Positions 1 through 11,325 of a stretch of DNA of 11,325 nucleotides are shown here, in pieces (the stretch's first letter is position 1; each line of letters starts with the position of its first letter). The notes under the pieces are model-generated. The model was not told the DNA's origin, did not search any database, and was given only the letters and a program-made list of their open reading frames with translations. The stretch is from assembly GCA_026398575.1 (NCBI GenBank), contig JAPLSP010000500.1, positions 1-11,325 of the forward strand. The letters are read 5' to 3'. Both the position numbers and the translations under genes were made by a program. This DNA comes from Candidatus Sumerlaeota bacterium (lineage in GTDB: Bacteria; Sumerlaeota; Sumerlaeia; JADFCT01).

Positions 1-4
1 CAGT

Positions 5-155
5 CGGTTCACCCCCACGTGCGTGGGGAATACGTAGGGTTCTGATTTCTCTCGTGTGTTGGGGCCGGTTCACCCCCACGTGCGTGGGGAATACTATCCG
101 CTGATTGATCGAAATCTTGAAACCTACGGTTCACCCCCACGTGCGTGGGGAATAC
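5..155 (-). CRISPR. Type I-E CRISPR array, leader-proximal end (3 repeats, 2 spacers)
   Basis: Three identical 29-base repeats lie at 5-33, 66-94 and 127-155, separated by two unrelated 32-base spacers (34-65 and 95-126). A 29/32 geometry is the standard for type I-E. Read on the minus strand, the repeat begins GTATTCCCCACG and ends GGTGAACCG. Its centre CCCCACG-CA-CGTGGGG can form a hairpin of 6-7 bp, the expected substrate of Cas6e. The orientation follows the cas operon: cas2, then leader, then array, so 127-155 is the leader-proximal repeat and 95-126 the most recently acquired spacer. Bases 1-4 are the end of a further spacer, so the array continues beyond the left edge. The identical repeats indicate an undegenerated leader end. 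Confidence 0.97.
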
Positions 156-285
156 TCTGCTTTTTGCTGAGAATTATCCATTAATTTACCTTCTAGTCAG
201 TAATGCGATATAAGGCATTATAAATACTTTAAGGTCCTTTTATGAATGCTTATGATTAAACTCCTTTGCCATGAGCTGTGACATC
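156..285 (-). promoter_or_regulatory. CRISPR leader with promoter-like sequence
   Basis: This 130-base AT-rich stretch lies between the cas2 stop codon and the first repeat, where a type I-E leader is expected. On the minus strand it contains a perfect TATAAT (plus positions 217-222). A TTCATA, matching 4 of 6 bases of the -35 consensus, lies 18 bases upstream (plus 241-246). Transcription from it would start near position 210 and run into the array. The leader should also hold the docking sequences for Cas1-Cas2 integration. I found no convincing IHF consensus site. Leader identity is inferred from position and composition; the promoter is a sequence match only. Confidence 0.7.
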
Positions 286-696
286 CTAAAAAACAAGATC
301 TGTTTCAGCACTGCTCTTGCCGCTATCTGGCTCAGGTAGTATGTCGTCATCCTCTGAAGATGGGTGATGCGCCAGCGAGACGCTGGCGCTCCCAGTGGGG
401 GGCGCTGAAGCATCTTCTTTCTTCCTTGGATGGGTGACGAGTTTGAGCCCCTCCCAATTGACGATTCTACGCTTGGTGGCGCCCCAGAATTCAACGTCGA
501 ATCCCTGCTCGTTGTTGGTCCCGTGGAGCAGGATGCATCCGCCGCCATTTGATTTTTCGCAAACTTTCCGCCAGAGATATCCCCGGACAAGAGCCGAGAG
601 ATTGCCCACGAACACGCCCGCTTTGGGCTCAATCATCCAGCGTGTGATTTCCCCCCTGAGCGAGCGGGGAACTTTTTCAAGGATCAGGACTACCAT
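286..696 (-). CDS. cas2: CRISPR-associated endoribonuclease-like protein Cas2, type I-E, with C-terminal tail
   Basis: Cas2 forms the central dimer of the Cas1-Cas2 integrase that inserts new spacers. Residues 1 to about 90 match the I-E Cas2 family: an N-terminal strand ending in E7-K-V-P, then L13-R14-G15, the A26-G27-V28-F29-V30-G31 segment, and the terminal W81-E-G-L-K-L-V strand. The family is usually about 95 residues, and this protein has 136. The extra ~45 residues are Ser/Pro/acid-rich, with an EDDD stretch, and are probably disordered. They do not resemble the DnaQ domain fused to some I-E Cas2 proteins. The ATG at 694-696 has a GGAGG 7 bases upstream (plus 704-708). The start overlaps the end of cas1 by 7 bases, implying translational coupling. 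A perfect palindrome sits inside the tail-coding part (369-389). Confidence 0.93.
   Translation of the reverse strand: MVVLILEKVPRSLRGEITRWMIEPKAGVFVGNLSALVRGYLWRKVCEKSNGGGCILLHGTNNEQGFDVEFWGATKRRIVNWEGLKLVTHPRKKEDASAPPTGSASVSLAHHPSSEDDDILPEPDSGKSSAETDLVF
369..389. repeat. Perfect 9-bp palindrome with 3-base loop inside the cas2 tail
   Basis: Plus-strand GCGCCAGCG-AGA-CGCTGGCGC forms a 9-bp stem with a three-base loop. It lies within the part of cas2 encoding residues 103-110, beyond the conserved fold. A weaker partner hairpin (386-405, with G-T pairs) overlaps its right arm. Stable GC-rich palindromes of this size are typical of dispersed REP-like elements, some of which are known to sit in frame in coding regions. 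Whether this one is dispersed in the host genome cannot be told from one copy. Confidence 0.6.
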
Positions 697-1883
697 TTTA
701 ATTCCTCCATTTGCTCGTCCAGGGTCTTGCGGGGCTTTCGATAATCATAGGGGCCGCTCGGGTACTCCTGCTCGTTGCTTGGCGGTTGCGGTTCCGGCGC
801 CTGGCGGGATGCTCCGGCTTCCTTTGGCGGACTCGCGGCCTCGTTGGAAGCGCCGTCGGCCTTGGGCGCGGCGGTTTGCAGCGGTTGCGGCGCCGAAGCG
901 GGAGAAGGCGGTAGTCCGTCGGTTCCCGTTAGCGCCGCCTCGCTCGCGGCGGGTTCCCACAAGGGCGCGGGCGCCGCCGGATCGGAATTGAAATCTATCA
1001 CCGCGGCATCGCCGCTTTCGGCGGCATCAGCAGCAACAGCAGAAGAAGAAGAAGCGGCGGAGTCCCGCAGTCCGAGCACGAATTCGATGTCGGGAATGAT
1101 ACGTTTGAGAATGCGCCGTTCGCGGAAGGCGTCGCGCAGCCGCAGGCGGACGGCGCGGTCGAGGCCGGGCGGATTGGCGGCGGCCATCTCGAAAGCGACG
1201 GGAATGGTCAACTCGGCTTTGTAGAGATCGGCGATGTCGTAAACGAAGGAGAGTTGCTTGCCGGTGTGGACGAATCCGAGCGCGGGCGAGAATCCCGCAG
1301 ACAGGATCGCGGCGTGGGCGATGCCATAGAGGCAGGCGTTGGCGGCAGACAGGGCGCGGTTGACCGGATCGCTGCGCGTCCAGGCCTCGCGATCATAGGT
1401 GCGGCCCGTCCATTGAATGCCATATTTGCGCGCGGCTTGCTGGTAGGCATCGCGCACGCGGGCGCCCTCCATGCCGCGAATCTGCTGGATCGAAAGGCGC
1501 GTGTCGAGCGGTTCGGGGAAGCGGATTTGATACATGCGCCAGACGACTTCGAGATGGAGTTTTTCATCGAGGCAGAGGCGGGCTTGTTCGAGCAGATGCG
1601 CGGCTTGGCGCGTTTCGCCCATGCCGGCGGCGTAGAAGCGGATGCCTTCCTCGCCGCACCAGACGGCCAGACATCCGTTGTCAGCCAGGGCTTTGATGGC
1701 GGCATGAGTCACCCGCGTTCCCGGCCCCAGCATCAGGAGCGCAAGCGCGGCGGCGGGAACGGGCGTGACGCCGCTCGCGTCATGAATAGCGATGGCCTGC
1801 GCCTCCTGATCCACGCGGCAATGCTCGACATAGAGATACGTCAGCCCATCGCGCACCTTGGGAAGGTCGTGCAGATCATGCAT
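690..1883 (-). CDS. cas1: CRISPR-associated integrase Cas1, type I-E, with long C-terminal extension
   Basis: Cas1 is the catalytic subunit of the spacer integrase. Residues 1 to ~272 match I-E Cas1 throughout, including G53-P-G-T-R-V, the catalytic E139 in R-G-M-E-G, H206 in G-F-V-H-T-G-K, and D216/D219 in V-Y-D-I-A-D. The metal-binding triad Glu-His-Asp is therefore intact. The family is usually about 300 residues, and this protein has 397. Residues ~273-370 are Ala/Pro/Ser-rich and low-complexity, with a Ser run encoded by a short trinucleotide repeat near 1041-1054. They are followed by a charged and aromatic end (Y374-P-S-G-P-Y-D-Y-R-K, then D389-E-Q-M-E-E-L-K-W). The ATG at 1881-1883 has a GGAGGAG 7 bases upstream. 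The gene follows cas6e after 40 bases and overlaps cas2. Confidence 0.95.
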   Translation of the reverse strand: MHDLHDLPKVRDGLTYLYVEHCRVDQEAQAIAIHDASGVTPVPAAALALLMLGPGTRVTHAAIKALADNGCLAVWCGEEGIRFYAAGMGETRQAAHLLEQARLCLDEKLHLEVVWRMYQIRFPEPLDTRLSIQQIRGMEGARVRDAYQQAARKYGIQWTGRTYDREAWTRSDPVNRALSAANACLYGIAHAAILSAGFSPALGFVHTGKQLSFVYDIADLYKAELTIPVAFEMAAANPPGLDRAVRLRLRDAFRERRILKRIIPDIEFVLGLRDSAASSSSAVAADAAESGDAAVIDFNSDPAAPAPLWEPAASEAALTGTDGLPPSPASAPQPLQTAAPKADGASNEAASPPKEAGASRQAPEPQPPSNEQEYPSGPYDYRKPRKTLDEQMEELKW

Positions 1884-1923
1884 GGTTTTTCTCCTCCGTC
1901 GAAAAACCAGGTTGCTTCTTGTT

Positions 1924-2688
1924 TCATGGCTTCGCGACGGAAAGCAGGCCGAAGCCTACCGCTTTTCCTGATCCGATGCCCCGCATGATTGTTTCGGAAA
2001 AAGCGCGAGCGTCCGTCACGCGAAGAACGCCCTCGAACAGCGCAGAGCGGAATCGCATCTTGTGTTTGTTGTTGGACCCAGAAACCCAACCCAGTTGCTC
2101 GACCTTGCATTGCTCGATCTCGAAACCGCAGGGCTGCTTGCTTGACTGGATTTTGTCCTTCAGCCACTCCGCAAGGGCCTCTCCGGGATTCTGTTCTTTC
2201 TCCCATGTGACGGAGACGCGGCGGTGTTTTTCTTTCGCGCCGCCTTCCAGTCTTTCGGCCTTTGACATCTTCATGCGCATGGTAGGATTGGCGCGCAGGC
2301 GGAAACGCAAGCGCTCCCCTTCCGCGAAGTCAGGCGTCCATTCCTTCACAGTCACCGGCGCGCGCAGCATTTCCGGAGCATTGGCAAAAGCATAATCCCA
2401 ATCCGGCCTGCGCGCTGATTGCATAACGATCACCGGTCCGCGTCCGGCCAGCGCATCCACTCGAAACAGGAAACCTTTGTCGGCGTCGCGCTGCTCGTGG
2501 ACATCGGCTGCGAAATCGCCCGGCGCAAACGGCGCCAGAAAGGCGGCGTCTCGCTCGAGTCTTTCCTTCGATGGGAACGCCATCGCCAACCGCTGGTGCA
2601 CGCGATAGACATTGCGCAGCCAAAGGCGGCCCGGCCTCGGGCGGTCGGGATCGTCTCCCACGTTTATCAGAAGACAAGACAGATACAT
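1924..2688 (-). CDS. cas6e: crRNA-processing endoribonuclease Cas6e (CasE)
   Basis: Cas6e cuts the pre-crRNA at each repeat hairpin and stays bound to the 3' handle as a Cascade subunit. The protein starts M-Y-L-S-C-L-L-I-N, as I-E Cas6e proteins do. It carries the Y28-R-V-H-Q segment, in which H31 aligns with the catalytic His20 of E. coli Cas6e. It has the conserved R-L-R-A-N-P-T segment in the middle and ends with the glycine-rich G-I-G-S-G-K-A-V-G-F-G-L-L-S loop. At 254 residues it is longer than the E. coli protein (199), through expanded loops after strand 1 and in the second ferredoxin-like half. The ATG at 2686-2688 is chosen over one 96 bases upstream because of homology and a GAGGAGG 7 bases away. 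It overlaps the cas5 stop by one base (TAATG). Confidence 0.95.
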   Translation of the reverse strand: MYLSCLLINVGDDPDRPRPGRLWLRNVYRVHQRLAMAFPSKERLERDAAFLAPFAPGDFAADVHEQRDADKGFLFRVDALAGRGPVIVMQSARRPDWDYAFANAPEMLRAPVTVKEWTPDFAEGERLRFRLRANPTMRMKMSKAERLEGGAKEKHRRVSVTWEKEQNPGEALAEWLKDKIQSSKQPCGFEIEQCKVEQLGWVSGSNNKHKMRFRSALFEGVLRVTDARAFSETIMRGIGSGKAVGFGLLSVAKP

Positions 2689-3785
2689 TATTCGACCTCC
2701 TCGGCGGCAAGTCTGCGGCGCCGCCGCTCCAATGAACGAAACGCGATAATCTGGCGGCGCTTCTCGGCGATCTGTTCGCGCCATTGAGGCTCCTCAGGAT
2801 TGATGCGGTCCAATCCCATGCCCGCGCCGTATTCCAGCATGGTGACAGCATCGTGACACAAGCGGCACAAGGACCTGAGTTCTTCTACTTGTTCATTGCC
2901 GCCGGCGTGGCGATAGGTAGTGTGCTGCACCGTCGTCGCCATCGCCTTGCAGAAGACGCAGAGACCGGCATCCATTTCCATGCGCTGCTCTCGTTTCTTT
3001 CTGTATTGCGAGTTCGTGTAATCGGCGCGGGGTCTAAGAGGCGGAGGCGTTCCCGATTGGGCGGCCTTCTCATCCACACGAATATCCCCATTCTCGCCGA
3101 CCATCAGTGTCTTTCGGATAACGAAACGAGCCTGATGCGACGGAGGCTCGAAGGACAACGGCGCGTCATACCAGATTTCAGCATCTCGCGGCGCCCTGGG
3201 CTCATTCGATAACGGTCTCCATTCAAGGATGCAGTCTACGGATTCAGGAATGGCGTCGTATTTGAGTCTTCTTTGCAGCGGGTGAGACCGCAACGCTGAG
3301 AGAAGGCTGCTGTGTTCGGAGGGTTCGGCCACGAATGGCGGGCGCGACATCGGGCAGCACTTGCGGCCAAGGTAGAGCGTCCAGCGCGGATGTCGCATGG
3401 CTTGCGCGAGCTCGGCGATTAACGCGGCATCACCTCGCAGGGCGACGAGAAAGCTGGCGTCGCACAAATATTCGCGCCGTGTGAGAATAGCGCCCGGTTT
3501 TAGTTTGCCTTCGGCTGTCGGCATCATCACGCCGCCGCCCACGGTATGGTAATCCCACCATCGAACTCCGGAAGCGTCTATACGGACTCCCATTTCGAGA
3601 GCGTTCAGCCGGGGCAAAGTATCGCGAGCCGCAGGGCGAGAAACGCCCATCGCTGCGCATAACAATCCGAGAACGCCGGATTTGGTAGGCGCTTCGCTGC
3701 TGCGGCGGACGACAAATTTCGATTCCTGATCGCCCCATGCTTGCATAGGGCCTTCGAGACGAAGCAAGAGTGTGTTCGCGCTCAT
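2688..3785 (-). CDS. cas5: Cas5e fused to a C-terminal HNH nuclease domain (Cas5-HNH)
   Basis: Residues 1 to ~229 are Cas5e, which caps the 5' handle of the crRNA in Cascade: L-R-L-E-G-P-M-Q-A-W-G at 8-18, then P33-T-K-S-G-V-L-G-L-L. A linker (~230-268) rich in Pro and Arg leads to an HNH domain at ~270-320. The domain has C276-x2-C279, H288-T-T-Y, A294-G-G-N-E298, L303-R-S-L-C307-x2-C310-H311 and D312-A-V-T. The two CxxC pairs would hold a structural zinc; H288 and H311 are the expected catalytic base and metal ligand. A basic helix (~335-360) ends the protein. At 365 residues it far exceeds the usual ~225-250, and the fusion is continuous with no frameshift. The ATG at 3783-3785 overlaps the cas7 stop (ATGA). 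With no cas3 nearby, this domain is the likely target-DNA nuclease. Position 287 is Gln, where His or Asp is usual. Confidence 0.93.
   Translation of the reverse strand: MSANTLLLRLEGPMQAWGDQESKFVVRRSSEAPTKSGVLGLLCAAMGVSRPAARDTLPRLNALEMGVRIDASGVRWWDYHTVGGGVMMPTAEGKLKPGAILTRREYLCDASFLVALRGDAALIAELAQAMRHPRWTLYLGRKCCPMSRPPFVAEPSEHSSLLSALRSHPLQRRLKYDAIPESVDCILEWRPLSNEPRAPRDAEIWYDAPLSFEPPSHQARFVIRKTLMVGENGDIRVDEKAAQSGTPPPLRPRADYTNSQYRKKREQRMEMDAGLCVFCKAMATTVQHTTYRHAGGNEQVEELRSLCRLCHDAVTMLEYGAGMGLDRINPEEPQWREQIAEKRRQIIAFRSLERRRRRLAAEEVE
2696..2702 (-). promoter_or_regulatory. Ribosome binding site of cas6e
   Basis: Minus-strand GAGGAGG lies 7 bases before the ATG at 2688. It fixes the start there rather than at the in-frame ATG at 2784, whose extra 32 residues have no counterpart in Cas6e and fall inside the HNH-coding part of cas5. 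Confidence 0.8.
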
Positions 3786-5029
3786 GATACAGCCTCGGCA
3801 TTGATAACTTTCTTTTGCACTTCGGCCCAATCAAATCCCAGCGCGCTGATAGTCTTCACGACGAGTTCATCCAGAGACTTGAGGTTTTCGCTTGCCAGCG
3901 GCATTTCCACTTTTTCCTCAATCACAGTCAAAGCATGGTGCAGATTGGGTGAGAACCAGAAGCGATGGTTTGGCTTCCCATAGCCAACGTCCAAGTCGCG
4001 CATGTATTGGGCCAGTTGGGCGATGCTCTGCGAAACGATGTCGCGCGTATCCGTTTTGACGGGGCTTGCGAAGGCGTTGGCATAGCTGATCGGCATTTCT
4101 TTTATTTCCACAGCGACACCGTCAGGAGGATTATGCGCCGCGTAGCTGTTCTGTTTGCCAGTGGGATTGGCAAGCATAGCGCCACGAATGAAAGCGCCAA
4201 CAGTATGCGCGGCCAGTTCTTCGTCGCCTTTCAGATTCTTAACCAGCGTTTCCCAGTGGATCGAGAAATACTTATAGAAACAGGCCGAGGCGAACATTGC
4301 TTCATCTACGAAAGCTGCTCCTGCGTCGTCGCCAGGAACATCGTCGGAGGCGACGTAGTAATCCACTTCCGGGCGCGCTTCGTGTGTCGAGAGCGCATGA
4401 GCTACTTGGAGAGCTGCTGTAACATTCAGGTCCATTCCTTTCCATACGCCCTTATCTTTGGGTTTCTCGCCACTTTCTTCGTCTTTTATCTCGTCCGCGT
4501 CATCAGATTTCCCCTTTTTAGCTTTCTTAGTTTTTTTGGGCTCCAGCATTCTCCCGCAAAGCGCCATATCCGGAGCGGCAGTATGCTCAACAATTAGTTT
4601 GGCAAATTCTACTGCCAGTTGTTGATCCGACTTTTCCTCATTCCGCAGCAGCATAGACATTTCATGGACCGCTTTGTGAGTCGTATATACGCGCCCAGCG
4701 CTTTTATCTTCATCTTTCAGGCTGTCATTATCGCTGCCTCCCTTCTTCTCTTTTGGCGCAATGCCGCAGATTTTAAGGACCCTCATTGCTTTTTCAAACT
4801 TGGATAAATCGAAGCCATCTCCAGCAATTAACTGCCCCAACCGGCGAGTAGCAACGCCACCGAGCAGAGCCTTGAACTCGTCACTCATACGAATGCTTCG
4901 CTTAATGCATTGGCTCGAGATTCGCGAGCGCAATACACCGCCGAAGTAGCACGTCTTGGGCGCGCCCAGATCGTCCCGGTTCAGGTTCGATGGTGGGTGA
5001 TTTTGAATTACATGGATTTCGATTAACAC
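3782..5029 (-). CDS. cas7: Cascade backbone subunit Cas7e (Cse4/CasC)
   Basis: Cas7 polymerises along the crRNA spacer to form the Cascade backbone. The protein has the hallmark N-terminus of the family: I-E-I-H-V-I-Q-N-H, then P13-S-N-L-N-R-D-D-L-G, G30-G-V-L-R-S-R-I-S-S-Q and C41-I-K-R-S. Later come N202-V-T-A-A-L-Q-V-A-H-A-L-S-T-H and the R328-x-T-like D327/D330 region. At 415 residues it is about 50 longer than E. coli CasC. Most of the excess is a Lys/Asp/Glu-rich segment (residues ~162-195) just before the N-V-T-A-A helix. The start is a GTG at 5027-5029, overlapping cse2 by 7 bases. It is chosen over an ATG at 5074 because the homology begins here and an AAGGAGGAG lies 8 bases upstream. 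The stop overlaps the cas5 start (ATGA). Confidence 0.95.
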   Translation of the reverse strand: MLIEIHVIQNHPPSNLNRDDLGAPKTCYFGGVLRSRISSQCIKRSIRMSDEFKALLGGVATRRLGQLIAGDGFDLSKFEKAMRVLKICGIAPKEKKGGSDNDSLKDEDKSAGRVYTTHKAVHEMSMLLRNEEKSDQQLAVEFAKLIVEHTAAPDMALCGRMLEPKKTKKAKKGKSDDADEIKDEESGEKPKDKGVWKGMDLNVTAALQVAHALSTHEARPEVDYYVASDDVPGDDAGAAFVDEAMFASACFYKYFSIHWETLVKNLKGDEELAAHTVGAFIRGAMLANPTGKQNSYAAHNPPDGVAVEIKEMPISYANAFASPVKTDTRDIVSQSIAQLAQYMRDLDVGYGKPNHRFWFSPNLHHALTVIEEKVEMPLASENLKSLDELVVKTISALGFDWAEVQKKVINAEAVS

Positions 5030-5538
5030 GGTGTTTTCTCCTCCTTGTCTATATTCAGAAATTGCGCCGCCCATCCGCGGCGCGTCTTTTCCCGTTCCCA
5101 GATCGAAAGGTCATCGGTCAGCTGCGCCCAGTCCACTGATAGCCCGGCCTTCTTCAATTCGTTGAGCGCCCATTGAAGCATCGGCTCGATGGCGCTGAGT
5201 GGAGTTTGGAGCAGTTCATCAAAGCATTCCTGCTTCCTTGCTTTTGTTTTCTCATCTCGCCTGCAGACCCTTCCCATCTGCGCCGCAAGATAATTGAATT
5301 CACCTGCTTGGTGAGCGAGCGGGCGGAAGGCGTAGAGCTTCGCCACCAGCCAAGCCACCGTACGCCGCGGCGCTCTCTGATTTTTTTCGCGCAGCGGCCA
5401 CCACAAGCCCGCGAACAAATCGAAGGCATCCACGCTCTTGTCCAGCGGCGATCCCGCATGCTTTCGCAAGAGGCCAAGATCGCCTTCTTTGAGCGAGCAA
5501 AGAATCCGAATATAATCTTCCGTCGCTTTTGAGCTCAT
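5023..5538 (-). CDS. cse2: Cascade small subunit Cse2 (CasB, Cas11)
   Basis: Cse2 dimerises in the belly of Cascade and helps hold the displaced target strand. The 171-residue, helix-rich sequence fits the family (E. coli CasB 160 residues). It has an early G-D-L-G-L-L-R-K-H-A-G segment corresponding to the family's conserved L-R-R region, then F40-D-L-F-A-G-L-W, and near the end W148-E-R-E-K-T-R-R-G-W-A, the usual closing helix. The start ATG (5536-5538) overlaps the cse1 stop in the sequence ATGA, and its stop overlaps the cas7 GTG start. These junctions place it in a single translationally coupled unit with cse1 and cas7. Confidence 0.92.
   Translation of the reverse strand: MSSKATEDYIRILCSLKEGDLGLLRKHAGSPLDKSVDAFDLFAGLWWPLREKNQRAPRRTVAWLVAKLYAFRPLAHQAGEFNYLAAQMGRVCRRDEKTKARKQECFDELLQTPLSAIEPMLQWALNELKKAGLSVDWAQLTDDLSIWEREKTRRGWAAQFLNIDKEEKTPC
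5038..5046 (-). promoter_or_regulatory. Ribosome binding site of cas7
   Basis: Minus-strand AAGGAGGAG lies 8 bases before the GTG at 5029, within the 3' end of cse2. It is the strongest Shine-Dalgarno match in the operon and decides for the GTG start. The strength fits the need for about six Cas7 copies per Cascade, which is an inference. Confidence 0.8.
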
Positions 5539-6896
5539 TTGCGTTTGCCTTTCTTTGGCTTTGGCGGCTCCGCTTCCATGCGGGGCATCGTTGCGCTAAT
5601 CTGTCGTCGCCGCTCCAATGCCTTTGTCGTTACTCCTGGAGAGATCGCGCCCGCCAGAACCTTCATCAATGGCGAATAATTTTTTGCTGCATCTTTCCAT
5701 GCTTCTTCCCCGCCGGCAATTAATTCTGTCGCTTGCGCCGCCACTCGCGCTTCCACGTGCGGCCGAATCGCCGTCGCCAAGATACCGAGTTCTGTATGTT
5801 TGCGGTTCGATTCGTGCCAAGGACGAAGCTGGGCAGGCAGCTTCTTCCCTTCATTTTCCCATCGGATCAATAGCTCATCTGCTCCAAATAACGCTTCGGG
5901 TAGTTCCAGCAGATTTTCCCAAACGTCAATGTTCTTGGCTTTATTTGTTGCAAAGCCTGTCACAAACAAGTGCAGCGGTTTAGGGCCGCCATGTGCAAGG
6001 AAATTTGCCATTAATGCGGTCCATGGCCGATCCATGCGGAAATATCCTGCTGTCAGATCCGGCGCCTTGACTTTTTTTTCAGGTTCCTCCGCATAGCTAA
6101 CGACGTGCGGGTCTGTCCACACTTTCGACTCAAGAGTTCCTGCGCTTTCGCTCTCGCATGATCTGACAAGCATATCAGATCGCACGCCGCATGATGCGCA
6201 TGCGCCTGCTGTGTCGCCCGGTTCATGAAGCCAGACGCGGCGCGAAAGCGCGCTCAATCCCGTAAGGATTGGCACATCGCTATTCCCTTCAGGCCGCGCA
6301 AGCGGATTGTCCAAGGCAAAGATGCCAAGGTTTTCGACTGGAGGACAATTAATTTGCAAAGTATCAAGCAAAGATTCGCCGATTGGGATTACATAGATTG
6401 GCGGCGTTCCATTGATTCCCGATTTGAGATCCGGCAACCCGCTTACCGAGAACATAGGCAGCCTTAGAAGCCCCATTATGCAGCAAGGCAGACACAAACC
6501 GGCATCATAATCCTCGATATGACAGAAATGCACATAGTTGTGTCCCGATGGCGCTTCCTGAATAAGGTCCGTGATAGGCCGGCGCCTGCGCGCCGTTTGG
6601 TCCTGATAAAAACGCAGACCTTCTCCAAGGAGGTTAAATAAATTCCTCTGCTGTTTAAGCTTGTTAATGCAGGCCTGCCATTTCGCATTCTCCAAATTGC
6701 TGCCGCCCCAGTATGTAAGGGCGATCAAGAATCTGAGAATCGCCGCACGATCCATTGGATTGGGCGCGGCGATTTGACGGATGTCTGCTGCGTTCTCGAA
6801 GGCTTGCTGTATTCCGATCTTCGCCACAGTTCCATCGTGATAGATAACCGGCATCCAAGCTTGATCCAGCAAATTATAGTCGGTTGTGTTTTTCAT
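5535..6896 (-). CDS. cse1: Cascade large subunit Cse1 (Cas8e, CasA)
   Basis: Cse1 recognises the PAM, opens the target duplex and, in classical I-E systems, recruits Cas3. The protein begins Y7-N-L-L-D-Q-A-W-M-P-V, the usual Cse1 N-terminus. It carries the two zinc-binding pairs C135-x2-C138 and C233-x2-C236, the M148-F-S-V-S-G segment before the glycine-rich loop, and S159-G-I-N-G-T-P-P. The C-terminal helical bundle covers roughly residues 320-440, followed by a Lys-rich end. At 453 residues it is somewhat shorter than E. coli CasA (502). Whether the missing part is the Cas3-docking surface cannot be judged by eye. The ATG at 6894-6896 is the first gene of the operon; only a weak GGAG lies 14 bases upstream. 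Confidence 0.93.
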   Translation of the reverse strand: MKNTTDYNLLDQAWMPVIYHDGTVAKIGIQQAFENAADIRQIAAPNPMDRAAILRFLIALTYWGGSNLENAKWQACINKLKQQRNLFNLLGEGLRFYQDQTARRRRPITDLIQEAPSGHNYVHFCHIEDYDAGLCLPCCIMGLLRLPMFSVSGLPDLKSGINGTPPIYVIPIGESLLDTLQINCPPVENLGIFALDNPLARPEGNSDVPILTGLSALSRRVWLHEPGDTAGACASCGVRSDMLVRSCESESAGTLESKVWTDPHVVSYAEEPEKKVKAPDLTAGYFRMDRPWTALMANFLAHGGPKPLHLFVTGFATNKAKNIDVWENLLELPEALFGADELLIRWENEGKKLPAQLRPWHESNRKHTELGILATAIRPHVEARVAAQATELIAGGEEAWKDAAKNYSPLMKVLAGAISPGVTTKALERRRQISATMPRMEAEPPKPKKGKRK

Positions 6897-7020
6897 AGCT
6901 CAGTATATTTCTCCGAAGGTGATAATAGACGCGCCTTGCTCCTGATCTGAATGCTCGTTTTTCACTTTTATATTCAGGCTGTTGCTTTCTTGATAGCGGG
7001 GCAGCAGCCATCGCAGACGC

Positions 7021-7026
7021 ATTATA
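7021..7026 (-). promoter_or_regulatory. Candidate -10 element for the cas operon
   Basis: A perfect TATAAT on the minus strand lies in the 192-base gap between the hydrolase gene and cse1. No good -35 lies at the normal distance; a TTGACC (plus 7066-7071) is 39 bases away, too far to pair with it. If used, it gives a 5' leader of about 115 bases. The gap holds nothing else I can name. Confidence 0.3.
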
Positions 7027-7088
7027 CTTTAATGATACAAAGCGATAGCGCGTTTTAGCGCGGCTGGTCAAGAGGAAAAGGAAAATGA

Positions 7089-7784
7089 CTATATGAAAGG
7101 CCGCGGGCCTATGATTGGGCGCAGCCAGACATAAAGCGCTCCGAGAATGAGCCACGCGAATGAGACAACCCACGCTCGGCGCTGCCATTGGGGGCGCTGG
7201 CCTTCGCGTGATGCTCTGCTCAGAAAATCGCGCTGAATCATCCAGGCGGCGGCGGTTATTATCAGCAGCCAAGGATCGAGTGAATTGACGCGATTTAGTT
7301 GCGCGTCGAAGGTCGAGAAAGGCCAGAAAATTCTGAGTGTGCCCCAGGAGGTGATGGCGTCCAGGATGAAATGGATGAATACTGCAATCAGCGCGATGCT
7401 GAAAAGTCTTTGCAGTGAAGGTTGAGCAATGAAACCAAGACTTGGCTGATCAGTCGCATTGGCAATCGGTTGGTTTTTTCTGCGAAGTGACGGCAGGAGC
7501 CATCGTTCCGGCCAATAGCGCGCGATCAGGGCCGAAACGGCGGCTATCGCGAGAAAGCCGATGACCGAGTGCGTCAGGACGCGATGGTACTTTGCATAAA
7601 GGGCGCTGGGCGCAGCGCCGCCGGTATCCAGAAGTCCCAGGATTCCGTCGGCGTCCGGCAGCAGCGCGCCGAGGATCACGCATGCGCGGTCGCGCCATCG
7701 GGCAAAAGATTTACTTTGGCCCGCCGGCGCCGGAATCGGCTCGGTCCAGAGCAACGCGCCTAAAATGTGAGTGACGGAGTCCAT
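7089..7784 (-). CDS. YdjM/DUF457-family membrane-bound putative metal-dependent hydrolase
   Basis: The 231-residue protein has the conserved pattern of the YdjM family (Pfam PF04307): T5-H6-I-L-G-A near the N-terminus, L42-P-D44-A-D46, H67-R-V-L-T-H72-S, and H138-F-I-L-D142-A-I-T-S-W-G. These His and Asp residues would form the metal site of a putative hydrolase. Hydrophobic segments at about 74-90, 126-142, 172-183 and 205-221 predict an inner-membrane protein. The substrate is unknown for the family. E. coli YdjM is LexA-regulated, but I see no LexA box here. The ATG at 7782-7784 is preferred to one 93 bases upstream because the family homology starts M-D-S-V-T-H and the extra residues would be encoded by the intergenic palindrome. 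No clear Shine-Dalgarno is present. It occupies the place where cas3 often lies but is unrelated to it. Confidence 0.85.
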   Translation of the reverse strand: MDSVTHILGALLWTEPIPAPAGQSKSFARWRDRACVILGALLPDADGILGLLDTGGAAPSALYAKYHRVLTHSVIGFLAIAAVSALIARYWPERWLLPSLRRKNQPIANATDQPSLGFIAQPSLQRLFSIALIAVFIHFILDAITSWGTLRIFWPFSTFDAQLNRVNSLDPWLLIITAAAWMIQRDFLSRASREGQRPQWQRRAWVVSFAWLILGALYVWLRPIIGPRPFI

Positions 7785-7812
7785 AGGCCCAAGCTGATTT
7801 TGAAATGACCAA

Positions 7813-7869
7813 CAGGCAGAATCATTGAGGGCAGAATCATTATCATTCTGCCCCCAATCATTCTGCCTG
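7813..7869. repeat. Long near-perfect inverted repeat (25-base arms, 7-base loop)
   Basis: Arms 7813-7837 and 7845-7869 are reverse complements with two mismatches, around the loop CATTATC. Each arm contains two copies of the GCAGAAT / ATTCTGC core found in the neighbouring tandem units, so this looks like one unit lying inverted next to another. It ends 29 bases before the hydrolase start codon. Transcribed on the minus strand it would form a long hairpin in the 5' region of that gene or the 3' region of the gene before it. Confidence 0.85.
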
Positions 7870-8115
7870 CGTTTCACCGGCTGACAGAGTAATTATCATT
7901 CTGCCCTCAATAATTCTGCCTGCGTTTCGACCGCCGGCTGACAGAATAATTATGATTCCGCCCTCAATGATTCTGCCTGCGTTTCGACCGTTGGATGACG
8001 GAATAATTATGATTCTGCCCTCAATGATTCTGCCTTCGTTTCGACCGCTGGATGATAGAATAATTATGATTCTGCCCTCAATGATTCTGCCTGCGTTTCG
8101 ACTGCCAACTGACAG
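7868..8115. repeat. Tandem repeat: four units of 53-57 bases plus a partial fifth
   Basis: Units begin TGCGTTTC (unit 4 TTCGTTTC) at 7868 (53 bases), 7921, 7978 and 8035 (57 each), with a 24-base partial at 8092-8115. Within each unit ATGATTCTGCC occurs twice, four bases apart, with single-base variants in units 1 and 2. GACAGAAT-7 bases-ATTCTGCC can form a small stem. Differences between units cluster after CGACC. The partial copy ends at the last base before the TAG stop of the GxGYxYP gene. Together with the inverted repeat, this fills the 331-base gap between the two genes, and I see no small gene in it. Confidence 0.92.
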
Positions 8116-11058
8116 CTATTGAGTAATCTCCCATAAAACAATTTCACTCACTGCCAGCGAGGCTTTGCCGGGCCAATAGACGCGGGTTTCGAGGGCGCCG
8201 CCGGGATGAGTGAATTCGAGCGGGAAGGCGCGCCAGGCGTTGAGCGGCGTTTCCGCTGTCGTGATTGCGCGCGCCGCCGCGTCTGTTTTCGCGTCGGCGG
8301 CGTGAACGTCTATGCGCGCCAGCTCCCCCACCCCTTCGCCAATACGTTTGAGGCGGAAAAGCGCCAGATAGCGCCCTGGCGGCAATGGCTTGTAGGGGCC
8401 GAAGATAACGTGTCCTGCTTCAGTCTCGCCCGTTTTCGCGACCCAGATTTTCCCGCCTGCGATTGCGCCATCGGCTTGCGCAACGCCGGAACGATGCGAG
8501 AGCTCTGCCGCCACGAAGCGGTCGGCGTATCGCAACGAACCGCGCTGCGGCAATGCGCCGGCGACTTCGCGCGAGGGGATAATTTGCAGTCCGATATCAT
8601 TCGATGCTTCTCCGAAAACGCCATGGAACGCGATTTTCAGCGACTTGCCTTGCGGCTTGCCGCGGAAGACGAACGTTTGGGACTGAAGCGCAGGAATCTC
8701 GGCGCGCGCAGGCTCGACCTTGGCGCCGTCAAGCCCTTCAGCCACTTTTGCGCTGACTGCCAGCGGCGCATTCGTCGCATTGAAGGCCGACGCCTGAAAG
8801 CATATCTCCTGTCCTTCTATCGCCATTACGCTCGGCGCGCATCGCACTACGATCTTGCTCCGCGCGAGCGCTTGGGATGCGAGCGCCGCAAGATGATCCG
8901 GCCTGACCGCAATGTATTGCGATCCCAGGCGTTCCATGACTTCGGGCAGTGTGGACAAATCGGCGCCCCAGTTCCAGATGAAGGCATGTAGAAACGCCGG
9001 CCGCGCCGTTGGCGTGGCGGCGCGAATCTGCTCGACGAACAGATCGCTCTTGCGCTGGCGCGTGGCGCCTTCCTCCCAATTGGTCACCGCGTGAAAGACG
9101 GGCACGCCGCGCGCCGTGGGATAAAAGGCTTCATCGTAGCGGCTCAGGCGGCGGCCATAATCGGGGAAAATCCCATCCACGTCCGGTATGTCGGACGCAT
9201 AGCGGGAAATCAAATCCTCCCGCGTGGCATTCATGATCCAAATCTGGCGCAGGTCCGAGCGCGCCAAATATTCGCGTGTCAGCGTGAGGAATCCGTCGAA
9301 GACTCGTTTGCGTGCCTCCGGTTCGAATCGCTGCCCGTAGTCGTCCGGATAGGTGTACCCCACTCCGGAAACGGCGCCAACGAAGGCGTCCGCCGGTCCG
9401 GCGTTGGCATAATAGTAGTCGGCAACAGCAGGCATCAACAATGCGGCGCACGGCGAAAAACTCCAGGCGATCGGGACGCGGCCATGCGCCTTGTCGCGCC
9501 AGAGTTGCGGAAAATTGCCCCGGCTCAGGACCGGCAAATTGTCGCCATCCGACATGAGCCACGTCAGATAAACCTTGTTGGGCTGCAGCTCGGGCGCGGG
9601 CGGGCGGCGTTGTTTCAGTTCGGGCGCCGGGAAGCCGGATTGCAGGCTGAGATTCGTGGCGCTCACCGACCCCACCAGGAATTTGCCGTATTGCGCAAAC
9701 AGCCGAACGCCGCCGCCTTCGCCGATGCCGACGTCGTCGCCGGCCCAGGGGAATCCCATGACGGGAATGTTCGCGGGATATTTGGCGAGAATTTCCTCCA
9801 TCAGGCGCGCCTCGGCCGTCGGGTCGCCGCCGGGCTGCGCGCCGTCAATCGGGCCGGTGATCCAAAACGTGAAGACGCGCTGCTGATAAAGGTAGTCGCG
9901 CAATCCGCTCACGTCATCGGGATAAAGACACGCCAAAACGAAATGATTGAGCTGGGGCCAGAGATGATCGAAGGCCCAGCGATAGGCTTCGGCGTTTGTC
10001 TTCCAGCGTCCGCGCAGATCGTCGAGGACGGGTAGCCCCAACTCGCGCGCCAAACGCGGCGAGACCACGAGGCCGTCCTTGACGGAGGCAATCATCATCG
10101 CCACGTTTTTCGTGGATGAAAGGCGCGGATCGCATAGGACGACGCCTTTGATTTTTTCCCGATAGCGCGCGATAAGCACCATGGGATCACCGGCGGCGTC
10201 TTCGCCTTCGATCCATTTTCGCGACTTCATCCAATCGAGCCACTGCCGGTCTGTTTCGTCCAACAGCGCATAAAGAGAGGGCTGTTCGCGATTGACCAGC
10301 CCCTGCAAAGACAGAAGCGCCATGCGGCGATCGGTGGGGAGGTTGCGCAAATCCATGACGGTCAAACGCGAGGCCGGCTTCGGCGCGTGCGGGAAGACAT
10401 CCGGGAACGGGCGCGCTTCGGGACGATATGGCAGATTGTCGGGCTTCCCGCTTGGCGAGGCGCTGGGCGCGCGCAAAGCGGAAATCCCGCCGCCGCCTTC
10501 CAGCGCGAAGAGCGTCACTTTATCGAGGCGCACTCCGGCGTAGCCATTCCAGAAGAGTCGGCATTCGAGTTTGCCGCCGGGAGAGCGGAACGCCAGAGGA
10601 ATCTGCGCATAGCGTTCGCGCGAGAGGTCGCCCGTCCAGACGTCGCGCGCCGCGAGTATCTTCACGGAAACGCCGACGGAGGCATCCAACTGAGCCGTCA
10701 CGTCGTCTTCGGTCTGGTCCAGAAGCTTGAGCCGGAAGAAGGCGACGTAATCGCCCGCGGGCGTTTCGAGATAGGGACCGAAGATCAGATGCTTGCTTGC
10801 GGTATCGGCGCCGCTGCGCGCTTCCCACGCGTTGCCGCCGGAGGCATCGGCGTCGGCAGCGGCGTGGCCGGTGTTGTGATTCGCCGGCGTCTCCGCCTCC
10901 CACGAGCGAATCAACCGATAAGTTCCCTTGGGCAGACGCTCGCGCGAGGGAACTTCGCGCAGAATGTCTTCGGGCGGAGTTTGCGCCACGACAGAGACTG
11001 ATAGAATTGTCGCCAGCCAAGATATGAGAAATAGCGATCTTGTCATGAATCTTGTCAT
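8116..11058 (-). CDS. Secreted GxGYxYP-family putative glycoside hydrolase with duplicated flanking domains
   Basis: A signal peptide (R3..R7, hydrophobic 9-24, V-V-A/Q cleavage near 25) marks export. The core matches the GxGYxYP family of putative glycoside hydrolases. An N-terminal part lies at ~232-400, with L249-S-L-Q-G-L-V-N-R. The catalytic-type part lies at ~495-725, with S503-D-G-D-N and the name-giving G565-V-G-Y-T-Y-P571. Residues ~735-825 look like an Ig-like strand-rich domain. Residues ~52-187 and ~846-978 are clearly related to each other: both have an A-E start, H-(L/V)-I-F-G-P-Y, an F-R-L-K strand and P-G-G-x-L-E. They may bind carbohydrate. The 980-residue form starts at the ATG at 11056-11058; an ATG at 11163 would bury the signal peptide. 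A GGAGG lies 15 bases upstream, rather far. Substrate is unknown. Confidence 0.88.
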   Translation of the reverse strand: MTRFMTRSLFLISWLATILSVSVVAQTPPEDILREVPSRERLPKGTYRLIRSWEAETPANHNTGHAAADADASGGNAWEARSGADTASKHLIFGPYLETPAGDYVAFFRLKLLDQTEDDVTAQLDASVGVSVKILAARDVWTGDLSRERYAQIPLAFRSPGGKLECRLFWNGYAGVRLDKVTLFALEGGGGISALRAPSASPSGKPDNLPYRPEARPFPDVFPHAPKPASRLTVMDLRNLPTDRRMALLSLQGLVNREQPSLYALLDETDRQWLDWMKSRKWIEGEDAAGDPMVLIARYREKIKGVVLCDPRLSSTKNVAMMIASVKDGLVVSPRLARELGLPVLDDLRGRWKTNAEAYRWAFDHLWPQLNHFVLACLYPDDVSGLRDYLYQQRVFTFWITGPIDGAQPGGDPTAEARLMEEILAKYPANIPVMGFPWAGDDVGIGEGGGVRLFAQYGKFLVGSVSATNLSLQSGFPAPELKQRRPPAPELQPNKVYLTWLMSDGDNLPVLSRGNFPQLWRDKAHGRVPIAWSFSPCAALLMPAVADYYYANAGPADAFVGAVSGVGYTYPDDYGQRFEPEARKRVFDGFLTLTREYLARSDLRQIWIMNATREDLISRYASDIPDVDGIFPDYGRRLSRYDEAFYPTARGVPVFHAVTNWEEGATRQRKSDLFVEQIRAATPTARPAFLHAFIWNWGADLSTLPEVMERLGSQYIAVRPDHLAALASQALARSKIVVRCAPSVMAIEGQEICFQASAFNATNAPLAVSAKVAEGLDGAKVEPARAEIPALQSQTFVFRGKPQGKSLKIAFHGVFGEASNDIGLQIIPSREVAGALPQRGSLRYADRFVAAELSHRSGVAQADGAIAGGKIWVAKTGETEAGHVIFGPYKPLPPGRYLALFRLKRIGEGVGELARIDVHAADAKTDAAARAITTAETPLNAWRAFPLEFTHPGGALETRVYWPGKASLAVSEIVLWEITQ

Positions 11059-11325
11059 AGTGAGGTGAATTTGCCTCCATTGAGTTCGGGACGATGATCG
11101 CCATCCCGAAAAAGCGGGCAAGCGGTTTCTTGAGGCGCATCCCGACACGCGTTTGGAATCCACCGTTCATTTAGCGGCAAAACAATGCCTGACAAAATGA
11201 GTACCTGGTGCGTATATTCGTAAATGCGATAACATAGAACCATCGCGAATACTCATGCCGGAAGAATGGATTCATGCGGATAAGAGCGGCGCCAGCATTT
11301 GGAGTGCGGTTGCTTGCTGCCGCTT
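11059..11325. other. Upstream region of the GxGYxYP gene, no gene seen
   Basis: These 267 bases hold no reading frame I can support. A weak promoter-like pair is present on the minus strand: TTGTCA (plus 11190-11195) and TAAATG (plus 11168-11173), 16 bases apart. It would read into the GxGYxYP gene, but the match is poor. Confidence 0.3.

Follow-up and report, generated by a model that had tools for sequence, protein, structure and literature searches.

An 11,325-nucleotide stretch of DNA from a Candidatus Sumerlaeota bacterium (contig JAPLSP010000500.1 of assembly GCA_026398575.1, positions 1 to 11,325; hereafter the window) carries an operon of clustered regularly interspaced short palindromic repeats (CRISPR) and cas genes that we assign to type I-E2, with an HNH nuclease domain fused to the Cas5e subunit of the Cascade effector. 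The zinc and histidine positions of the HNH domain are intact, and no cas3 was found in the contig. We consider it highly probable that this Cascade binds a target flanked by a protospacer adjacent motif (PAM) and likely cuts both strands PAM-distally by means of the HNH domain, the cutting itself being a prediction for this complex.

The Cas5e-HNH fusion is confirmed, and the interpretation given to it in the first-pass annotation is largely supported. The frame at 2688-3785 is open throughout and encodes a single 365-residue protein, Cas5e followed by a C-terminal HNH domain, as the first-pass annotation had read it. The Cas5 part was recognized by Pfam family PF09704 (Cas_Cas5d, E-value 3.7e-40, residues 5-215), and its Cas5e identity by TIGR01868 (E-value 7.9e-47). 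The proposed HNH layout was also recovered, with CxxC at residues 276-279 (C276, C279), HTTY beginning at H288, which had been numbered correctly, and LCRLCH at residues 306-311 (C307, C310, H311). Decisive was the match to the solved Cas5-HNH chain 8yb6_A, which spans both parts of the window protein (E-value 2.6e-117); with the HNH part as sole query the E-value was 3e-38. The HNH identity of the domain is therefore far beyond chance.

The type I-E setting claimed for the fusion holds, both by the TIGR and Pfam families of the operon genes and by 8yb6 as the best solved relative. Leftward on the minus strand, the gene order is cas8e-cas11-cas7-cas5HNH-cas6e-cas1e-cas2e, followed by the array on the same strand. 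By position, the features are:

5..155, minus strand: CRISPR array, three 29-nt repeats (127-155, 66-94, 5-33) and two complete 32-nt spacers (95-126, 34-65)
286..696, minus strand: cas2e, 136 aa (PF09707, E-value 2.4e-29; TIGR01873, E-value 1.6e-17)
690..1883, minus strand: cas1e, 397 aa (TIGR03638, E-value 2.9e-115, residues 5-270)
1924..2688, minus strand: cas6e, about 254 aa (PF08798 and TIGR01907)
2688..3785, minus strand: cas5e-HNH fusion, 365 aa plus stop (Cas5e residues 5-215, HNH about 250-350)
3782..5074, minus strand: cas7e, 430 aa (PF09344, E-value 2.6e-84; 8yb6_D, E-value 9.7e-118)
5023..5538, minus strand: cas11e (cse2), 171 aa (PF09485, E-value 2.4e-13; 8yb6_K, E-value 5.9e-37)
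5535..6896, minus strand: cas8e (cse1), 453 aa (PF09481, E-value 4.9e-32; 8yb6_J, E-value 5.1e-74; below the TIGR02547 cut-off)

All five Cascade subunits have the Candidatus Cloacimonetes Cas5-HNH Cascade 8yb6 as their best solved relative, which places the system in type I-E2; Cas1e and Cas2e were named from family profiles only. Neighboring genes overlap by a few bases (TAATG at cas5/cas6, one base; ATGA at cas7/cas5). The cas6e start is likely Met33 of a longer open reading frame (ORF; 1924-2784), at 2688, because this residue is where PF08798 and TIGR01907 start to match and because of the junction sequence. The minus-strand array repeat is GTATTCCCCACGCACGTGGGGGTGAACCG, and the array ends at the contig edge. 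The tail of Cas1e is rich in proline and alanine and runs for ~125 residues past the Cas1e model (after about residue 270; window 690-1073).

Cas5-HNH was described by Altae-Tran and colleagues (2023; PMC10910872), the source to which the first-pass annotation had correctly pointed. In the relevant sections of that paper, cas3 is missing from most examples, and the Ca. Cloacimonetes Cas5-HNH Cascade makes PAM-dependent cuts in double-stranded DNA (dsDNA) at 3-4 and 8 bp past the protospacer without Cas3, with collateral cutting of single-stranded DNA (ssDNA) and loss of editing upon changing HNH residues. The published cuts are PAM-distal and leave 3' overhangs. The variant was named I-E2 by Makarova and colleagues (2025; PMC12669027), and the relevant parts of both papers present the absence of cas3 from I-E2 loci as typical, not universal. 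Structures of HNH Cascades are summarised in PMC11822464; those of the Ca. Cloacimonetes I-E2 Cascade are PDB 8yb6, 8yha, 8zlu, 8zm3, 8zol, 8zp7, 8zp9 and 9jxs. The idea put forward in the first-pass annotation is already known, and the mechanism considered below transfers the published one to this member. What is new is a fairly divergent I-E2 member, at most 69% identical to the best 120 listed proteins and apart from the Cloacimonadota branch.

Like the Ca. Cloacimonetes system, the window has the HNH domain at the Cas5e C-terminus, five Cascade genes in a locus without cas3, 29-nt repeats, 32-nt spacers, and the same VQH and CxxCH motifs; unlike that system, it falls outside the Cloacimonadota branch, and cutting by its complex is a prediction. 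With classic type I-E Cascade-Cas3 (E. coli; Thermobifida-type 5u07/6c66) it shares Cas8e, Cas11, Cas7, Cas5, Cas6e, Cas1e, Cas2e and the repeat type, but HNH on Cas5 and the lack of a detectable cas3 in the contig set it apart. The type I-F4 Cas8-HNH Cascade (Selenomonas sp.) also has HNH built into Cascade in place of Cas3, although there the domain sits in Cas8f within a type I-F frame and here in Cas5e within a type I-E frame; the window Cas8 matches Cse1 only. The HNH nucleases of IscB and Cas9 and the phage HNH endonuclease GVE2 (5h0m) are single-protein or stand-alone enzymes, without Cas5 or Cascade. By these sequence comparisons, the window system is type I-E2.

Several observations weigh against the reading of a self-cutting I-E2 Cascade. 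The first-pass annotation had expected a profile search to recognize the HNH domain; a PF01844 match was indeed found (residues 282-314, E-value 0.0013), but its score of 19.3 bits lies just below the curated cut-off of 21.4, and Pfam and PADLOC scans of the protein at an E-value of 0.001 listed no HNH family. In favor of HNH, 87 of 88 aligned Cas5-HNH proteins scanned singly matched PF01844 (E-value up to 10), with a best E-value of 3.4e-7. The predicted fold (a second model, from an 88-row alignment; the first, from 33 rows, was poor at a mean predicted local distance difference test score of 46.1 and was dropped) was consistent in fold comparison with HNH fused at the Cas5 C-terminus, but its two structure alignments with a Z-score of 30 have root-mean-square deviations near 9, so that the model leaves the placement of HNH relative to Cas5 unfixed. 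Identity to L048, a Cloacimonadota locus whose HNH motif equals that of 8yb6, is about 51% for Cas5-HNH and 36% for Cas8e (43% for Cas11, 49% for Cas7 and 44% for Cas6e). Targets were sought for two arrays, those of the window and of locus L026. The two window spacers had no exact match in viral contigs, and the window array gave only a 21-base chance-level match in the phage collection (E-value 0.5, two records of one phage), neither search giving a target or PAM for the window system; the L026 array had no match in phages. A cas3 gene may also lie elsewhere in the host genome, as 17 of 60 related genomes have one.

The borderline Pfam score would fit a catalytically dead HNH domain, in a Cascade that only binds and silences its target, and so would Gln287, the residue preceding H288, since many HNH nucleases have a metal-binding Asp or His at this position (IscB has His in the HNH alignment). 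C276, C279, H288, C307, C310 and H311 are, however, invariant across the 88-row alignment of Cas5-HNH proteins. Scanning genome contigs yielded 62 loci, of which 61 have Cas5-HNH and one (L062) a plain Cas5, and viral contigs added one further Cas5-HNH locus (L063); the resulting 62 Cas5-HNH loci retain the zinc cysteines and the two key histidines. Gln precedes H288 in 60 of these loci (His in L043 and L054) and in 118 of the best 120 proteins (119 proteins fit the motif pattern, 117 of them with Gln; P0017, read by eye, has it too). The solved chain 8yb6_A carries the same VQH, which makes Gln287 a family trait and not a sign of decay, and the Ca. Cloacimonetes relative with VQH cuts dsDNA, as reported in the relevant section of PMC10910872. 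In the HNH part, the nonsynonymous substitution rate was below the synonymous rate in all eight chosen pairs among related loci, some synonymous rates being near saturation. A dead HNH domain is accordingly the least probable explanation, and we give it hardly any weight.

It is also very unlikely, though slightly less so, that the window encodes a classic type I-E effector for which a cas3 elsewhere in the genome does the cutting, HNH being a mere accessory. The contig is short, covering 4.4 kb upstream of cas8e, and the absence of Cas3 holds for the contig only: Pfam and TIGR profile scans of the nine main window ORFs detected no Cas3 family, and tblastn with a Cas3 query gave no significant match (best E-value 0.062). 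To that extent the locus has the composition typical of I-E2 and not that of classic type I-E, with Cas3 in the locus. Among 61 related genomes, TIGR01587 scored over its cut-off in 18 (10/32 and 8/29), one of which, G061, carries the plain locus L062, leaving 17 of 60 with Cas5-HNH. The other 43 of the 60, incomplete metagenome-assembled genomes (MAGs), had no Cas3 over the cut-off; every genome has helicase matches below it, and a few of these, such as those of 97.7 bits (G038) and 89 bits (G018), may be true Cas3. Cas3 and Cas5-HNH are on separate contigs in 15 of the 17 genomes, where linkage is not wholly excludable because several HNH contigs are short, and are about 110 kb apart in G026 and about 16 kb in G027. 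No Cas3 was seen inside the HNH operon in the 17 genomes, though many contigs are short, and a Cas3 query against 63 loci matched only L062. In five of the 17 (G003, G025, G026, G027, G050), and also in G061, a plain Cas5 is located no more than 5 kb from Cas3, which indicates that Cas3 in those five has its own operon. G027 (L064:1-19801, a Synergistaceae MAG) has two adjacent type I-E operons, one with Cas5-HNH and without cas3, the other classic, with an 844-aa Cas3 and a plain Cas5 of its own, and a 98-repeat array between them; in G003, a 265-aa Cas5 and a 929-aa Cas3 share a separate plain operon. The conservation of the HNH residues likewise speaks against a mere accessory.

For a self-cutting I-E2 Cascade, the Ca. 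Cloacimonetes relative suggests the following course. Cas6e would process the precursor of the CRISPR RNA, which would guide Cascade to a PAM-flanked target, with Cas8e reading the PAM. Full R-loop formation would displace both Cas6 and HNH, opening the active site, in which H288 would act as general base and H311 as metal ligand. The single HNH domain would then cut both strands near the PAM-distal end, giving a defined break instead of shredding by Cas3, and might also cut ssDNA collaterally, as the relative is reported to do. New spacers would be acquired through Cas1e-Cas2e.

A protein search with the window Cas5-HNH scored 7997 candidates and gave at least 2111 matches (E-value up to 0.001), and the best 120 of these, the window protein itself excepted, are 64-69% identical to it. 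By MAG title, the Cas5-HNH tree spans 14 phyla, labels that are limited by the foreign contigs MAG bins may contain. The window protein groups with metagenomic P0002 (Shimodaira-Hasegawa-like approximate likelihood ratio test, SH-aLRT, 95) and stands outside the Cloacimonadota branch (SH-aLRT 99), which includes one Bacillota-labelled MAG. All seven window cas genes were matched by tblastn in 43 of the 62 Cas5-HNH loci, and 42 of these keep the gene order and strand of the window; the best cas2e match of L027 sits in an adjoining operon. The remaining 19 loci, some at contig ends and some not, are without one to three of the genes (L021 and L054 without cas1; L047 without cas1 and cas2; L060 without cas8, cas11 and cas7).

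The 631-aa frame of L060 (6837-8732) at first resembled a new kind of fusion. It consists instead of a truncated Cas5-HNH, starting at about residue 166, that continues in frame into an RHS-like repeat frame; the locus is broken, having lost cas8, cas11 and cas7, and retains cas6-cas1-cas2 and a 38-repeat array. On the IMG/VR contig of L063 (1-8259), an I-E2 operon from cas8e to the start of cas6 lies beside divergently encoded phage genes (portal protein, phrog_21, E-value 1.6e-68; head maturation protease, phrog_3244, E-value 7.1e-25), with about 0.5 kb between cas8e and the start of the portal gene; this may be a prophage next to a host operon, a phage-borne I-E2 system or a misassembly. 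Long Cas7 ORFs of 546-610 aa, versus 430 in the window, were found in five loci (L036:5599-7371, L043:1153-2790, L044:8283-9986, L049:6182-8011, L052:8271-9980), and Pfam scans of those in L036, L043, L044 and L052 recognized Cas7 only, leaving the extra stretch without a named domain.

Upstream of cas8e, the window contains, in order:

7089-7877: YdjM-type membrane protein (PF04307, E-value 4.2e-22)
7822-8159: tandem repeat, 57-nt unit in about five copies, between the YdjM and glycoside hydrolase genes
8116-11163: putative GxGYxYP glycoside hydrolase, 1015 aa

A hidden partner replacing Cas3 was sought in the 7 kb upstream of cas8e, whose ORFs were clustered across the 47 loci that have 1.5 kb or more of this region (44 genome Cas5-HNH loci, L062, L063 and the window), and was rejected: the only group present in three or more loci (five loci) starts like ordinary signalling proteins. 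A stand-alone HNH ancestor was likewise rejected, as the 75 small proteins found with a 111-aa HNH query (57-81% identical) resemble pieces of Cas5-HNH genes, 44 of them judged from identity and length only; the query found no more distant stand-alone family. Plasmid records gave 226 matches, all below 60% identity and none covering 80% of the query, the best 20 spanning the Cas5 part only, and phage records gave four, none covering 80%.

Biochemistry and structures of Cas5-HNH Cascades in the literature found come from one Candidatus Cloacimonetes system. It is conceivable, but rather improbable, that the I-E2 systems outside the Cloacimonadota form a large lineage, spread across phyla, of self-cutting Cascades in which a Gln-His active site replaces the usual Asp/His-His, and that the window branch differs from the only characterised member in cut geometry or collateral activity. 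The Cas3 survey supplies counts for the published observation that cas3 is missing from most Cas5-HNH loci. With a complete cas set and a nuclease subunit only about half identical, the window belongs to another branch and can therefore test the generality of cut sites, overhangs and collateral ssDNA cutting, which makes this divergent member a test case of moderate value.
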